Positions 23,995 to 29,921 of a stretch of DNA of 64,000 bases are shown piece after piece (the stretch's first letter is position 1; every line of letters begins with the position of its first letter). The translations under genes were made by a program, and so were the position numbers. The notes under the pieces were generated by a model. It saw only the letters and a program-made list of their open reading frames with translations, did not search any database and was not told the origin of the DNA. The stretch is from Balneolaceae bacterium (GTDB lineage Bacteria > Bacteroidota > Rhodothermia > Balneolales > Balneolaceae). The stretch spans positions 1 to 64,000 of the forward strand of contig JAXHMK010000008.1 of the NCBI GenBank assembly GCA_034521495.1, written 5' to 3'.

Positions 23995-26031
23995 TCAAAA
24001 CCTAACCCTCGCCTGAATCCCAAAATCACTCCTTCGATCTCCCTGAATCTCATTTAATCCGCTGCTGATGGTTCGACGATCTTCATAGATGGTGGTGGAA
24101 AGCTTCATCCAGAGTTCAAGCCAATCGGTCGGTTCGTAATTGAATAGAATGTACATCCGTTGGCCCTGATCGAAAGCATGGTGTTTGACAGCACGTAGAG
24201 CAGATCGTTTTCGAATTGATACACGCGTGAATCGTATCCTTCGGTTTCGAACATGGTGACCCTGGCGTCAATCTGAAATCGGTCGCTTACGTAGTACCGG
24301 ATATCCTGGAAAACGAGATATCCCCAACTGGTATCGCTGTTGGGTGGGGTTGCTTTTGCGAGGTCAAAACGGGTTCGCAGCCGTACGTTTGGATGAACTC
24401 GGTATTCGGCCTGGTAGCGAATCGAGCTTCGAATATCATCATCAAGAAGGCTGATTTCCCGGCCGAATTCATCTGTGGAATCGTATTCCTCTTCTCTTGT
24501 TTTGGAGCGGAAAAGCAGGTACATGTTCAAATCTGGATTGGGTTCATATTCTATCATCCCGAGCCAGTCGAACCCGGACGTAGGCTGACTTTGCAAAAAT
24601 CTCGCACCGGGAAATCGGAACTGATCGAAATAACCAGTGAGTTGAATTTGTTCGGTCAGTTCATGTTCAATTCCAATATAAAATCCCTCCTCGTTTCCCG
24701 GAGTGCCGGATTGCTCCCCGAAACCGGCGCCGAAAATGGATTGTAGCTGTTTATCATAATATCGGTAGGAGAGGGCAAGATTGGTTCGGTTTCCGACTTC
24801 AAAATCGGCCCCGGAAAGGAGTCCGTAACCGCCATTATCGGTATAGGCAAATTCTCCGAACAGGATGACATTTTGAATTAAGAACCGGTAGTCGGCAGAA
24901 TATCCTGAAAGCTCTTTGCCGGAGAAATCAAACACCTGGTAGGGTTGATTTCCTGCTTCAACGGTCATATCAAACCGATTGTGGTAGGCAGTAAGTCCAA
25001 GAAAGCCAAATGGGACACGGGCCCGGATTCGTCCGCCAAAGGTTTCCTGCCCAAGATTATTTCGGCGGCCCACCTCATTTTGTGTTCGGTGATAGCCGGT
25101 TTCTGTCGGAAAGTTTACCACGTTCTCTTCAATGAGACTGGCCGTTCGATTGCGGTTGGAGTAAAAACCACTCACTTGAATCTGATCGCCATACGTAGCC
25201 GCAATACCGCGAAAACCAATCGCTTCCTGGGCAGAGGTGAATGGGCGAATTCCCCGCTCATTTTTTGATACGCCGTTGGTCACATCGCGTCCTTTGCCAA
25301 AAGCTCCGCCACTCCAAAGTAAGCAAGCCCTGACCAAAGGAAATACTGTAGTCGCCAATCACCAAATCCTGCAAATTCCCAACATCATTCACGCCGATGT
25401 GCCAGGATGTATAATCAAAATCGGTGGGACCGGAAAGTGGTTCACCGGGATCTTTATCCTGGGTAATATTCAACGAGAGATGGTTGCTGGTATATCGAAA
25501 TCGCTGGTAGTATTTTGCCGGGCTGCCCAGGTATCCGCCCATCGAATCGGGGCGGGCGTATCCTTCCTGCTCCTGGAGTGTTCGTTGATATCGGGTGAAG
25601 CCCTCAAAACGCCCGTTATTCGTCCAGTAATTTGGGTTTAGATAAAGATCCCGGCTCAATTCCATTCCGGTTCCAACAGTGATGTAGGGACGAATTCGGC
25701 TGAGAGTTGCCGGTCCGATTCCGGGTACATTGGTGAGATCATCAACGGTAGAAAAGGGTACCTGATTGGATCGATATTGAACAATTCCCTGAGCGAGACG
25801 GAAATTCAATCCCGGAATCTGCATCAAATCATCTACAGACGCCCGATTGATGTTAATTGGGTTATTGGCAAGGCTCTCAAGGAACTCAACCAGTTCTTCG
25901 AGGTCCAGGTCAGATTCTTCGGGATCGATCTCTTCAATCGCTTCTTCAAGATCGCGTTCTATTTGCGTTCGAACGGTGTCAGCTTCCTGGGCAAAGGATT
26001 CAAGTGGAAGAAGAGTACCGAGAAGAAACAA
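23995..26031 (-). pseudogene. Helix-hairpin-helix plus outer-membrane beta-barrel protein with two frameshifts
   Basis: One gene in three frames. 26031-25322 encodes a signal-like leader ending SFAQEAD, an acidic stretch, then two helix-hairpin-helix motifs (NINRASVDDLMQIPGL; STVDDLTNVPGIGPATLSRI), followed by barrel-like strands to YSISFGQGLL. An extra A near 25320 shifts frame; LLWSGGAFGKGRDVTNGVSK continues. A missing T near 24173 shifts again to FDQGQRMYILFNYEPTDW, ending in the outer-membrane type GIQARVRF with terminal Phe at 23998. Total about 678 residues. The start is not certain: TTG 26031 leaves a leader without positive charge, and the frame is open back to a TGA near 26100. The role is unknown. 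Confidence 0.75.
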
Positions 26032-26350: not shown

Positions 26351-27478
26351 TTATGTTGCCGGATTCATAGCAGGCTCAGGTGCCTCTTCCTCATCCAGTT
26401 CTTCTTCTGTTTTTCGTCGCCAATAGTTGGCAAGAGTCGAACCTGAAATATTCATCCAGGGGCCAAAAATTGCCGGCGCAAGACCAACGGTTGCCAGTCG
26501 GCCCATCTCTTGGGCAAGCCCGGAGGCCATTCCGCCATTTTGCATTCCTACTTCAAATGCAATGGTACGGCATGATTTTTCATCCATACCAACAAGACGG
26601 CATCCCCAATATCCAAACAGGTATCCAAGAGCATTGTGAATCACAGCTGCAAGAATCAGCAGAAGACCGATTGAAACCAGTGAGTCGCGACCAGCCGCGG
26701 TAATTACAGCAATAATAAAGGCAATCCCAGCCATGGATACGACCGGCATAATATCATCCAGCCATTTGATTTTTCCATGCAGAAAGTGATTAAACAACAA
26801 TCCAAGCACAATTGGTAGAATAATCATATTCAGGATGCTGATCATCATTCCATAGGTATCAATCGGCACAAACTGACCGGCCAGGAGCTGCATCAAATAG
26901 GGAGTAGCCAATGGTGATAACATGGTTGAAACGGCCGTGAGCGTAATAGACAATGCAAGATCTGCTTTTGCGATAAAGGCCATTACATTTGAGGCCACAC
27001 CGCCGGGACAGGAACCAATCAATACAACTCCGGCAGCAACTTCGGCCGGAAAACCAAAACTCAAGGCGAGGCTTATTCCAACAACCGGCATGATGGTGTA
27101 TTGGCAAATGATACCTACACCCACACCTTTTGGTTTTTTGAATACGCCTTTAAAATCCTGCATGCTCAATTGAGTTCCCATCCCAAACATAATGAGCTGG
27201 ATAAGCGGAACAATCAGGTTGCTAAGGTCATAACCTCCCCAGGATGTCATGTATTGCGGATAAAACATAGAGAATGTTACGGCCGCAAATATCCAGAGGG
27301 AGAAGGCGAAGGATTTAAAGAGGGTCTCTGTGCCTCTCACTCCTATTGCCAGTGAGATAAACATACCGGTTGTGAACACAGCCATTAATGGGGAACTGCT
27401 GTCCACAAACAGCATGACGATCATACCGATGAAGCAAATCAGACTCAGCCAAAGAAGTGATTTCAAAACAGATTTCAT
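26351..27478 (-). CDS. Bile acid:sodium symporter (BASS) family transporter
   Basis: A membrane transporter with 9-10 predicted spans, about 375 residues from the ATG complementary to 27476-27478, 1 base after the stop of the preceding gene. BASS motifs include LIMFGMGTQLSMQDFKGVF and VVLIGSCPGGVASNVMAFIA (the cation-binding crossover), and NGGMASGLAQEMG. Members carry bile acids, pantothenate, pyruvate or other organic anions with sodium. As it follows a mandelate-racemase-like and an RraA-like gene, it may import the sugar acid or ring acid those two act on. The C-terminus is acidic (EEELDEEEAPEP). Confidence 0.88.
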   Translation of the reverse strand: MKSVLKSLLWLSLICFIGMIVMLFVDSSSPLMAVFTTGMFISLAIGVRGTETLFKSFAFSLWIFAAVTFSMFYPQYMTSWGGYDLSNLIVPLIQLIMFGMGTQLSMQDFKGVFKKPKGVGVGIICQYTIMPVVGISLALSFGFPAEVAAGVVLIGSCPGGVASNVMAFIAKADLALSITLTAVSTMLSPLATPYLMQLLAGQFVPIDTYGMMISILNMIILPIVLGLLFNHFLHGKIKWLDDIMPVVSMAGIAFIIAVITAAGRDSLVSIGLLLILAAVIHNALGYLFGYWGCRLVGMDEKSCRTIAFEVGMQNGGMASGLAQEMGRLATVGLAPAIFGPWMNISGSTLANYWRRKTEEELDEEEAPEPAMNPAT

Positions 27479-27479
27479 A

Positions 27480-28964
27480 CTAACTCCAGGTTCTGTCCCA
27501 TGTTCGGATTTCGTTCCATTCCGGTGTTGGCTCGAAATAATCGGCATCTTCAATCAGGTGTTCGCGAACGGCTTCTTCGTTGATCTCAACACCAAGACCC
27601 GGTTTTTCGGGAACGGGTGTGTATCCATCCTGGAAAATCGTGCTCTTGTCCTCCTGGATGAGATCATACCAGTTTGGCGTATCTACGGAGTGATGTTCAA
27701 GCGCGACAAAATTTTCGGTTGCGGCCGCCGCATGAACACTTGCCATAAATCCAAAAGGAGATCCTGCGTAGTGCAGCATCATGGCAATACCGTTTTGCAT
27801 GGCATAATCGCCAATTCGTTTGGTTTCCAGGATTCCGCCGGCAGAGCCGAGATCGGGGTGAATCATATCCACCGCTTGTTTATCGATCAATTCTCTGAAG
27901 CCATCGAGCAGGTAGATATCTTCGCCGGTCATGGTGGGAGTGGTTGTTGATTCAGAAATCTCTTTCCATTCATCTACATACTGCCAGGCGATAAGATCCT
28001 CAACATAAGCAAGCGTGTAAGGCTCAGTTGCACGGGCAATTTTGATCGCTTCATTCTTATCGAAATGTCCCCAGTGATCGGTTCCCATTGGAATTTCGTA
28101 TCCAATTGTGTCACGCATTACACGCAAATATTCCATCATTCGTTCGAGGCCTTTTTCTGTAACCTGGACTCTCGTAAACGGGTGATCAATCTGTCCGTAA
28201 TCACCCTGTTCACCGGAATATTGAGACCGCAATTCGCGCTGTCCCTTCGGACCGTACTCCCGGGTATTGGCCAGCGATCCCTCTTCATCATCCACCAGGC
28301 CAATTCCCATATCCATCTTTAAAAAAGTGTAGCCCATATCCACACGCTCCTGCATTCGCCGGGCGTATTCGTGCGGATCATCTGAAGTGGTTGTATCACA
28401 GTAGAGGCGCACTTTGTCGCGATATTTTCCACCCAATAGTTGATAAACCGGAACTCCATATGCTTTCCCGGTCAGATCCCAAAGAGCGGTTTCCACACCG
28501 GAAACTCCGCCACCCTGGCGTCCATGTCCTCCAAATTGTTTGATGATTTTGAAGACCTTCTCAACATTGCATGGATTTTCACCCAAAAGCCTGCTTTTCA
28601 GAAACAGAGCGTATTCTTTCGCACCACCATCCCTAACTTCACCATATCCCGAAATTCCCTGGTTGGTGTCAATTCGAATCAGCGGCACCCGAAATGGAAT
28701 TCCATCAATTTCTGCAATTCGCAGGTCGGTAATTTCAAGGTCGGAGGGGCTTGAGTTCCTGTTTACATTTTGTGCGAGATGACTGATTTGATCTTCAAAA
28801 GGGAGAGCAAACATGCCAAATAATCCGAGTCCACCGGCACCGGCTTTTTTGATGAAATTGCGTCTGTCAACTTTGTTAGGCTGGACACCCCTCCCTCCGA
28901 CATCCGTCGGAGTACTCCCCTCAAGGGGAGATCTACTTGTGCCATTGCTTTTTTTATTGCTCAT
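27480..28964 (-). CDS. Mandelate racemase/muconate lactonizing enzyme family protein with Tat signal
   Basis: Enolase-superfamily enzyme, 494 residues. After an unusual leader comes a Tat signal (RRNFIKKAGAGGLGLFGMFA, R34-R35), so it is exported folded. The barrel shows FLKMDMGIGL, PMGTDHWGHFD, AYVEDLIAW, TGEDIYLLDGF, DMIHPDLGSAGGI and MMLHYAGSPFGFMA, the metal-binding Asp/Glu/Glu set plus a late His. Substrates are sugar acids or cyclic acids; dehydration of a sugar acid is a guess. Residues 12-27 match a palindromic repeat inserted in frame (see findings). It runs from 13 bases after the RraA-like gene to 1 base before the transporter. Confidence 0.85.
   Translation of the reverse strand: MSNKKSNGTSRSPLEGSTPTDVGGRGVQPNKVDRRNFIKKAGAGGLGLFGMFALPFEDQISHLAQNVNRNSSPSDLEITDLRIAEIDGIPFRVPLIRIDTNQGISGYGEVRDGGAKEYALFLKSRLLGENPCNVEKVFKIIKQFGGHGRQGGGVSGVETALWDLTGKAYGVPVYQLLGGKYRDKVRLYCDTTTSDDPHEYARRMQERVDMGYTFLKMDMGIGLVDDEEGSLANTREYGPKGQRELRSQYSGEQGDYGQIDHPFTRVQVTEKGLERMMEYLRVMRDTIGYEIPMGTDHWGHFDKNEAIKIARATEPYTLAYVEDLIAWQYVDEWKEISESTTTPTMTGEDIYLLDGFRELIDKQAVDMIHPDLGSAGGILETKRIGDYAMQNGIAMMLHYAGSPFGFMASVHAAAATENFVALEHHSVDTPNWYDLIQEDKSTIFQDGYTPVPEKPGLGVEINEEAVREHLIEDADYFEPTPEWNEIRTWDRTWS
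28882..28930. repeat. Palindromic repeat inside a coding leader
   Basis: Two adjacent hairpins: CTCCGACATCCGTCGGAG (28895-28912) and CTCCCCTCAAGGGGAG (28915-28930). The second has the same core as the hairpins at 15350 and 15468. Length is about 49 bases, and it keeps the frame open in the minus-strand gene. Confidence 0.75.
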
Positions 28965-28976
28965 AATCTATTCCTC

Positions 28977-29921
28977 CTAAATTTCTTCGGTTTCAATGAT
29001 GCGGTCGATGGTTGATTCGCCAATTCCGTACTCTTCGTGAAGCATTGTCCGATTTTCTTCAAGCCAGTTTAAAAAGTCTTGACGGATCGATTCAGTCCAG
29101 TCCGTATCCATCTGGCCGGCCGTATACGTTCCTTCCTGGACTCGTTGGTGAGCAAAAATATCGGTAAGACGAATCACGTCAGATTCATTCACAACTTTTT
29201 CAGCAAGATGAGCGGGAATAAATATAACTCCGGTCTCTTTAGCCAGAACTACATCGCCGGGCAGTACGGTCGCCTCACCAATCATGATGGGCGTATTCAA
29301 TCCCATCAGCATCATCTCCTGGAGGAATGAAGGATCCCACTCGCGGACAAAAGCATTAAACCCATCTATAGCTGAAAGTCCTTCACGGTCTCGCGATGAT
29401 CCGTCAAATACAACGCCATTGCCGGAATTGGCGTAGATTGTATTTCCGAGCCGGTCGCCGATCAGCGTTCCGTCTTTAATTTTTCCAAATCCATCGGCAA
29501 CATATACATCTCCCTGGACCAACACATCAATTGGCCAGGTATTCATCGGGCCGGAGCGACCGTCTTCCATTCCTTGAGCAATAATGGTTTCCTCGAGTGC
29601 GGGCCGGCTCGGCATATATTGAGCGGTTACAGCGCGACCGACCACAGCTTCCCCGGGATTCAAAATTTCCCAGTCTCCGCCCGTAAATTGATTGTGGTAT
29701 CCAAATCCCCGGATGATGCCCCAGGCTTCCTCAATCGAAACATGTTCCATTCGTTCAAGAACATCATCAGCAACTTTAGGTCTGCCGTCCTCAAACCGTT
29801 CACCTTCCCATTGGGGGGTGAGCCAGATCATTTTTTCTTTTGAAATGGTTTGAGCTTCGGCAGGTATGTAAGTCGCAAATATCAGAGCAGATAAAAATAG
29901 TAGTGAGATCAGTTTTTTCAT
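28977..29921 (-). CDS. RraA-family protein with signal peptide
   Basis: Related to RraA/HMG aldolase proteins. Residues 1-24 from the ATG complementary to 29919-29921 are a signal peptide (MKKLISLLFLSALIFATYIP, then AEAQ), so the mature protein is periplasmic, unlike RraA of E. coli. The metal/substrate motif is IGDRLGNTIYANSGNGVVF followed by DGSSRDREG, near residues 175-200. Members include 4-hydroxy-4-methyl-2-oxoglutarate aldolases and oxaloacetate decarboxylases. At 314 residues it is longer than E. coli RraA (161), with an N-terminal helical part. First gene of a unit with the Tat-exported enolase-like enzyme and a BASS transporter. Confidence 0.82.
   Translation of the reverse strand: MKKLISLLFLSALIFATYIPAEAQTISKEKMIWLTPQWEGERFEDGRPKVADDVLERMEHVSIEEAWGIIRGFGYHNQFTGGDWEILNPGEAVVGRAVTAQYMPSRPALEETIIAQGMEDGRSGPMNTWPIDVLVQGDVYVADGFGKIKDGTLIGDRLGNTIYANSGNGVVFDGSSRDREGLSAIDGFNAFVREWDPSFLQEMMLMGLNTPIMIGEATVLPGDVVLAKETGVIFIPAHLAEKVVNESDVIRLTDIFAHQRVQEGTYTAGQMDTDWTESIRQDFLNWLEENRTMLHEEYGIGESTIDRIIETEEI

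Follow-up and report, generated by a model that had tools for sequence, protein, structure and literature searches.

We analyzed a stretch of 64,000 nucleotides from a Balneolaceae bacterium (GenBank assembly GCA_034521495.1, contig JAXHMK010000008.1, positions 1 to 64,000; hereafter the window), in which three adjoining minus-strand genes encode, in reading order, an RraA-like protein, an enolase-superfamily enzyme of the MR/MLE type and a sodium/organic-acid symporter of the BASS family (Table 1). The first two genes are separated by 12 bases and the last two by 1 base; a preliminary description of this DNA had presented them as a tight three-gene unit with these gaps, and coordinates, strand and families all bear it out. 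We tentatively suggest, at slightly below even confidence, that the three genes constitute a module of an extracytoplasmic sugar-acid pathway, comprising a dehydratase, a keto-acid step carried out by RraA and import of a 2-oxo acid by BASS. Gene order, families, export signals, conserved catalytic and binding residues and the association with signal-bearing families that make 2-keto-3-deoxy acids were all observed; from them we infer all reactions, the substrate and the transported product.

Table 1. Genes and sequence features of the three-gene unit, in window coordinates
Feature	Position	Strand	Basis or remarks
BASS (sodium/organic-acid symporter) gene	26351..27478	-	375 aa from ATG; PF01758; closest NCBIfam model PanS, below cut-off; closest solved structure Neisseria ASBT
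Enolase-superfamily (MR/MLE, mandelate racemase subgroup) gene, Tat-exported by signal, proposed aldonate dehydratase	27480..28964	-	494 aa; PF13378/PF02746
RraA-like gene, secreted by signal; proposed substrate 2-keto-3-deoxy sugar acid	28977..29921	-	314 aa; PF03737
Sec-type leader of RraA-like enzyme, about residues 1-23	29853..29921	-	sequence
Asp156 codon of RraA-like enzyme	29454..29456	-	aligned to Asp102 of HMG/CHA aldolase 3NOJ
Arg177-Asp178 codons of RraA-like enzyme	29388..29393	-	aligned to Arg123-Asp124 of HMG/CHA aldolase 3NOJ
Twin-arginine motif RRNF of MR/MLE Tat leader, residues 34-37	28854..28865	-	sequence; both arginines (R34, R35) unchanged throughout two alignments, of 11 and 29 sequences
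Dispersed palindromic repeat, in frame within MR/MLE Tat leader	28879..28943	.	26 full or partial genome matches, window copy included

Gene families and export signals

Pfam assigns the RraA-like protein to PF03737 (59.7 bits), BASS to PF01758 (140.2 bits) and the MR/MLE enzyme to PF13378 (163.4 bits) and PF02746 (42.4 bits), the domains of the mandelate racemase subgroup, both above cut-off. None of the three window proteins passes an NCBIfam cut-off, and Pfam and NCBIfam concur on the families. The longest open reading frame (ORF) for BASS begins at 27553, within the adjoining gene, and its residues are counted from the ATG.

Both enzymes carry marks of export, in agreement with the preliminary description. 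The RraA-like protein has the hydrophobic leader MKKLISLLFLSALIFATYIPAEAQ, and residues 33-50 of the MR/MLE enzyme hold the twin-arginine translocation (Tat) motif DRRNFIKKAGAGGLGLFG, with a mildly hydrophobic stretch after RRNF. When explicit rules were applied to the loci of relatives, a Sec-like leader was scored in 78/82 RraA proteins and also in 324/615 other ORFs at the same loci, so that this leader is weak as lone evidence. A Tat-like leader was found in 26/29 MR/MLE proteins versus 37/615 other ORFs; the three MR/MLE proteins lacking one are two gene fragments (loci L045 and L087) and a distant paralog (L091). Based on these signals, both enzymes are predicted to reside outside the cytoplasm. 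The palindromic repeat within the Tat leader is absent from a near-identical relative (L022).

RraA and BASS as the common core of two gene sets

We searched for the three families in a panel of 58 genomes, made up of the genome harboring the window and 57 relatives. RraA matches with E < 1e-90 occurred in 10/58 genomes (12 at E 0.001, two being short, weak matches), close MR/MLE matches (at least 64% identity) in 9/58 (19 at E 0.001) and close BASS matches (at least 62% identity) in 12/58 (42 at E 0.001). Close BASS genes were present in 10/10 genomes with RraA versus 2/48 others (Fisher p 1.3e-9), and the co-occurrence was also seen inside the genus (Fisher p 8e-6), both values being uncorrected for kinship.

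In addition, a profile search of genome contigs with an RraA alignment confirmed at least 572 relatives; the locus counts given here cover the best 80, two of which repeat panel genomes (L037 = G015, L116 = G022). L037, from the cultivated Rhodohalobacter sulfatireducens, encodes the window genes at 92-95% identity. BASS lies in the same stretch as RraA in 60/80 loci and within two ORFs of it in 59/80, an adjacency beyond chance. An MR/MLE gene is found within four ORFs of RraA in 24/80 loci, 16 of them with BASS (at one of the 16, L087, BASS sits farther than two ORFs away). The preliminary description would have lost its footing had the three genes never occurred together in relatives; this neighborhood check found RraA, MR/MLE and BASS together in 16/80 loci. 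What it had overlooked is that the RraA and BASS core also belongs to a second, commoner gene set, containing an amidohydrolase, RidA and a DgaE-like ammonia-lyase, which is represented at 47/80 loci; BASS accompanies it at 38 of these, and the complete trio of enzymes occurs at 39. Neither set is present at 9/80 loci, 6 of which have BASS. The RraA-BASS pair is thus the common core of two gene sets. Gene orders vary (RraA-MR-BASS; MR divergent from BASS-RraA; amidohydrolase-BASS-RraA-RidA-DgaE-RidA; RidA-DgaE-amidohydrolase-RraA-BASS), and the genes have therefore been kept together despite rearrangement. The best 80 loci are mostly from Bacteroidota, with others from Luteitalea and Acidobacteriota (L039, L041) and from Planctomycetota and Phycisphaerae (L085, L111); one (L078) is labeled as a cyanobacterium.

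Two tested amidohydrolases of the second set score 416.4 and 448.5 bits against the PRK09237 model, above its cut-off of 371. Two tested copies of the pyridoxal phosphate (PLP) enzyme score 205.6 and 196.9 bits against the DgaE family, below its cut-off of 385.3, and we therefore regard the enzyme as a DgaE relative, not a certified member. K241, which we take to be the PLP lysine, and the arginine pair of the leader are kept in 47/47 DgaE-like proteins. Leaders in this set are Sec-like in 45/47 amidohydrolases and 51/63 RidA proteins, and Tat-like in 35/42 DgaE-like enzymes. At 31/80 loci there is a member of the GSDH-cytochrome c cluster. For this gene of about 580 codons in the amino-sugar set a glucose/methanol/choline oxidoreductase had been expected, and Pfam returned the GSDH and cytochrome c domains in the three members tested; at L042, the gene in the corresponding position encodes a sodium/proton exchanger.

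An MR/MLE locus in a relative (G011, L023) combines BASS, RraA and two Tat-type MR/MLE enzymes with an SGL lactonase, a pyrroloquinoline quinone (PQQ)-type dehydrogenase with cytochrome c, SusD and two UxuA-like proteins (mannonate-dehydratase relatives) with twin-arginine (RR) leaders. It also encodes a kinase nearest to the 2-keto-3-deoxygluconate (KDG) and 2-keto-3-deoxygalactonate (KDGal) kinases, below cut-off, and an aldolase scoring above the cut-off of PRK07114, the KHG/KDPG aldolase model. Known members of the MR/MLE, UxuA-like and DgaE-like families presumably make 2-keto-3-deoxy acids; on this assignment, three unrelated families with such products and with export signals adjoin RraA, and both gene sets should yield, outside the inner membrane, 2-keto-3-deoxy sugar acids. 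Neighbors tested by Pfam in relatives comprise PQQ-type dehydrogenase, SGL lactonase, UxuA, KDG-type kinase, SusD, AGE epimerase and sulfatases. The preliminary description had allowed for either a sugar acid or an aromatic acid; as these neighbors are sugar enzymes, we retain the sugar acid and reject an aromatic-acid pathway as the principal interpretation.

The genome harboring the window contains a second pair of RraA and Tat-type MR/MLE genes on contig C4 (L029, 10194-11480 and 11588-12694), the products being 50% (RraA) and 36-43% (MR/MLE) identical to those of the window. This pair adjoins an alkaline phosphatase with an RR leader, and the window's BASS is the sole BASS match of the genome. 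On contig C9, an RR-leader DgaE/SelA-like enzyme is encoded beside an RR-leader MR/MLE enzyme (L031, 8235-9461 and 9696-11048), with no RraA seen in this 20-kb stretch.

Conserved residues of the two enzymes and the transporter

An AF2 model of the RraA-like protein (pLDDT 93.5) was closest in VIA-align to RraAS2 (5X15; Z 25.0), followed by 3K4I (23.5), 5IR2 (23.2) and 3NOJ (22.3). RraAS2 is also the best match by sequence, and Foldseek ranked 3K4I first; matches outside the RraA fold had Z < 7 and were not used. The HMG/CHA aldolase 3NOJ superimposes with an rmsd of 2.3 Å over 200 residues at 18% identity, placing the model in the same fold, and neither HMG/CHA equivalog cut-off was reached (PRK09262, 47.5 bits, cut-off 179; ligK, 46.2 bits, cut-off 304.5). 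The structure searches give nothing firm on the substrate. Among 97 RraA relatives, including two genomes counted twice, Arg177 and Gly155 are conserved in 97/97, Asp178 in 96/97 and Asp156 in 89/97. In the alignment to 3NOJ, these residues correspond to Arg123, Gly101, Asp124 and Asp102, respectively. The D-X20-R-D metal/enolate site is thus complete in the window protein (D156, 20 residues, R177-D178) and in 89/97 relatives. In HMG/CHA aldolase, Arg123 is described as essential, Asp124 as a metal ligand and Gly101 as lining the pyruvate pocket (PMC5065237). Window RraA differs from this aldolase, with which it shares the fold and these four places, in its low sequence identity, its signal peptide and its sugar rather than aromatic surroundings. 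Conservation of these residues suggests that RraA probably cleaves its substrate to pyruvate.

The best structural match of the MR/MLE enzyme was 2QQ6 (Z 47.4; 1.7 Å over 369 residues). D296, E322, E348, D371, H398, K216 and D218 are conserved in 33/33 MR/MLE proteins; from the 2QQ6 alignment we take them to include three carboxylate metal ligands and an H398-D371 dyad. Conserved histidines are H297 (32/33), H300 (31/33) and H261 of a long loop (32/33). The best NCBIfam model is that of D-galactonate dehydratase (PRK14017; 211.9 bits, below the cut-off of 311), and by these sequence features the enzyme represents a distinct subgroup. Our best guess is an aldonate dehydratase; it may instead be a cycloisomerase or epimerase.

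The BASS core aligns with that of ASBT-NM, and S163, N164, E309 and Q313 are kept in 71/71 BASS proteins, as expected of the family; we assume that E309 and Q313 are the remaining sodium-site residues. In ASBT-NM, Ser114 and Asn115 are sodium ligands, and Asn265 and Gly267 belong to the pantoate site (PMC10645422). All four places are kept in 71/71, and the family together with the sodium-site residues upholds the earlier assignment as a transporter that brings in an organic acid with sodium. At the place of ASBT-NM His294, a Met is found in 71/71 BASS proteins of both gene sets, and Leu, Val or Met occupies the place of Thr112. This likeness of the pocket across the two gene sets suggests that both share a single product as cargo. 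While the sodium- and carboxylate-site residues resemble those of ASBT-NM, PanS and plant BASS2, window BASS differs from these by the His294-to-Met replacement (PMC10645422). PanS, the best model, was missed at 261.8 bits (cut-off 400). Plant BASS2 is cited for pyruvate and BASS5 for 2-keto acids (PMC10645422), which speaks for a keto acid as cargo.

Among distant BASS genes, those of G032 and G052 had no query genes adjoining, while in G012 the contig carrying BASS, at 3463 bases, does not reach far enough for neighbors to be judged. The BASS gene of G052 (49% identical to that of the window) lies among three genes of the dihydrodipicolinate synthase (DHDPS) family on contig C130 (L119, 1883-7970), with no RraA seen there. 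The DHDPS family includes pyruvate-yielding lyases.

A proposed extracytoplasmic pathway and its alternatives

In the pathway we propose, dehydration of an aldonate by the Tat-exported MR/MLE enzyme would yield, outside the inner membrane, a 2-keto-3-deoxy acid. Secreted RraA would take this acid as its substrate, the most likely reaction being a retro-aldol split into pyruvate and a short aldehyde, and BASS would import a 2-oxo acid with sodium, most likely pyruvate. More broadly, many Bacteroidota and some other bacteria might conduct the whole of an Entner-Doudoroff-like pathway outside the inner membrane, via sugar oxidation by a PQQ-type or cytochrome c-fused dehydrogenase, lactone opening, aldonate dehydration or amino-aldonate deamination and splitting by secreted RraA; we regard this extension as possible yet doubtful. 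Were it to hold, carbon would enter the cell as pyruvate with sodium, not as sugar.

Several observations weigh against the proposed pathway. Asp156 is missing in 8/97 RraA proteins (GN..RD in five rows from four genomes; GE..RN, GA and GS in one each). At L024, L025, L027 and L028/L116, it is the MR/MLE-paired RraA copies that read GN..RD, and at L026 GE..RN; L024, L025 and L027 also contain an AGE-epimerase-like gene. The active-site Asn71 of 3NOJ aligns with Thr128, one position off the invariant Asn127, so conservation of that residue is not established. In the MR/MLE enzyme, the histidine of the third-strand D-x-H motif of 2QQ6, which we take to mark D-galactonate and D-mannonate dehydratases, is replaced by a variable residue at position 298 (His in 1/33), leaving the dehydratase step uncertain. 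ASBT-NM binds pantoate and not ketopantoate (PMC10645422), so that binding of a 2-keto acid by BASS is not assured. BASS is absent from 20/80 loci, and as only 3 of these (L045, L085, L110) end less than 3 kb from RraA, most absences are locally real. In three BASS-less loci (L048, L050, L061), genes of a tripartite ATP-independent periplasmic (TRAP) transporter follow and close the amino-sugar set. Pfam identifies DctP at each of these loci, whereas DctQ and DctM were assigned by Pfam at L050 and by cluster at L048 and L061. L058 has both TRAP and BASS genes, and BASS-less L091 has an SSF symporter. FlDet, a flavobacterial enzyme of the RraA family, is described as dehydrating and decarboxylating its substrate rather than cleaving it (PMC8563752). 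Finally, among 31 genome rows with the module (10 relatives and 21 named isolates from the best 80, with G058 = G015 counted twice), matches to a KDG-type kinase occur in 31/31 and to a 2-keto-3-deoxy-6-phosphogluconate (KDPG) aldolase in 30/31, and the kinase occurs in 10/10 panel genomes with RraA versus 14/48 without (p 4e-5).

The near-universal presence of kinase and aldolase matches fits an alternative, in our view rather unlikely, in which the 2-keto-3-deoxy acid enters uncleaved through BASS. Cytoplasmic KDG kinase and KDPG aldolase would then have to finish its breakdown, amounting to a semi-phosphorylative Entner-Doudoroff pathway with exported dehydration, and RraA would be left with a secondary task, for instance removing or isomerizing the keto acid. 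The kinase tracks RraA inside the genus as well (9/9 with RraA versus 9/19 without, p 0.01), the G011 locus itself holds kinase and aldolase, and TRAP genes stand at three loci that lack BASS (L048, L050, L061). However, searches with the two L023 proteins at E 1e-12 placed relatives of KDG kinase and KDPG aldolase at 0/80 of the best loci, which is what one would expect with RraA filling their role. In the genome harboring the window, kinase and aldolase share a locus with their own TRAP transporter, UxaC and UxuA, which by its gene content we read as a hexuronate route. Moreover, G076 has the module but shows no KDPG aldolase and a kinase match that is partial, and import of the uncleaved acid would leave RraA without a main role despite its presence in both gene sets. 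Between these two readings, we favor RraA as the source of pyruvate, by a narrow margin.

Alternatively, RraA could be a dehydratase acting on the 2-keto-3-deoxy acid in a Weimberg-type route, with BASS importing a product resembling alpha-ketoglutaric semialdehyde, which we consider improbable. FlDet turns 2-keto-3-deoxy-glucarate into alpha-ketoglutaric semialdehyde by dehydration and decarboxylation, and it is 26% identical to the Streptomyces RNase E inhibitor RraAS2 and 20% identical to HMG/CHA aldolase (PMC8563752). RraAS2 is in turn the protein that window RraA matches best by sequence and VIA-align, although Foldseek prefers 3K4I. The substrate class, a 2-keto-3-deoxy sugar acid as proposed for window RraA, thus has a precedent, and the reaction may be either cleavage or dehydration. 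However, the FlDet substrate is a C6 diacid, and the likeness is drawn from the published description. The FlDet gene is also flanked by an alginate lyase gene, unlike the window gene, and the accessible part of the report mentions no export signal (PMC8563752). Least probable by a wide measure is a noncatalytic RraA that assists or regulates the exported dehydratase: some MR/MLE-paired copies lost Asp156, and where a GN or GE copy is present, four genomes out of five (G010, G017, G020, G054) keep an intact RraA beside BASS (the altered copy alone was seen in the fifth, G022, 81% complete), but the full motif persists in 89/97 proteins, and fold and Arg/Asp pair match the aldolase.

The pathway proposed here, with RraA producing pyruvate, recalls Entner-Doudoroff variants with an aldonate dehydratase, in which an aldonate is converted to a 2-keto-3-deoxy acid that then undergoes aldol cleavage; the module follows the same scheme and differs by its export signals and in that no KDG kinase or KDPG aldolase was found at the best 80 loci. 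The second gene set resembles the ong pathway of a Pseudoalteromonas strain, in which GlcNAc1A is converted to KDG by the deacetylase and deaminase OngB and OngC, and in which RidA is required for growth in a role left unexplained in the report (PMC9537276). Deacetylase, deaminase, RidA and an importer of sodium-symporter type are common to both, whereas OngB and OngC are predicted to be cytoplasmic, their importer belongs to the SSS family and acts before them, and KdgK finishes the route (PMC9537276). The module, in contrast, has enzymes with export signals, a BASS importer and an added RraA, and the window carries the MR/MLE set rather than the amino-sugar set; deacetylase, deaminase, RidA and KdgK genes were not among its direct neighbors in a partial scan of window ORFs.

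Breakdown of sugar acids is usually placed in the cytoplasm. Dehydration or deamination, and perhaps C-C cleavage, outside the inner membrane would, if true, alter models of uptake for marine and soil Bacteroidota, give a function to a large family of secreted RraA proteins and provide substrate predictions for an uncharacterized group of BASS transporters. In the open-license PubMed Central literature, searched by title and the start of the abstract, we found no description of an exported RraA/dehydratase/BASS unit.

Promoter and terminator scans remained at shuffle level (8 versus 7.3 and 5 versus 4.4, respectively) and were not used as evidence. Two overlapping minus-strand ORFs at 24105-25358 and 25258-26031 cluster with a single ORF of 701 codons in L022 (5229-7334); they reflect a frameshift or assembly error in a gene for a helix-hairpin-helix protein.

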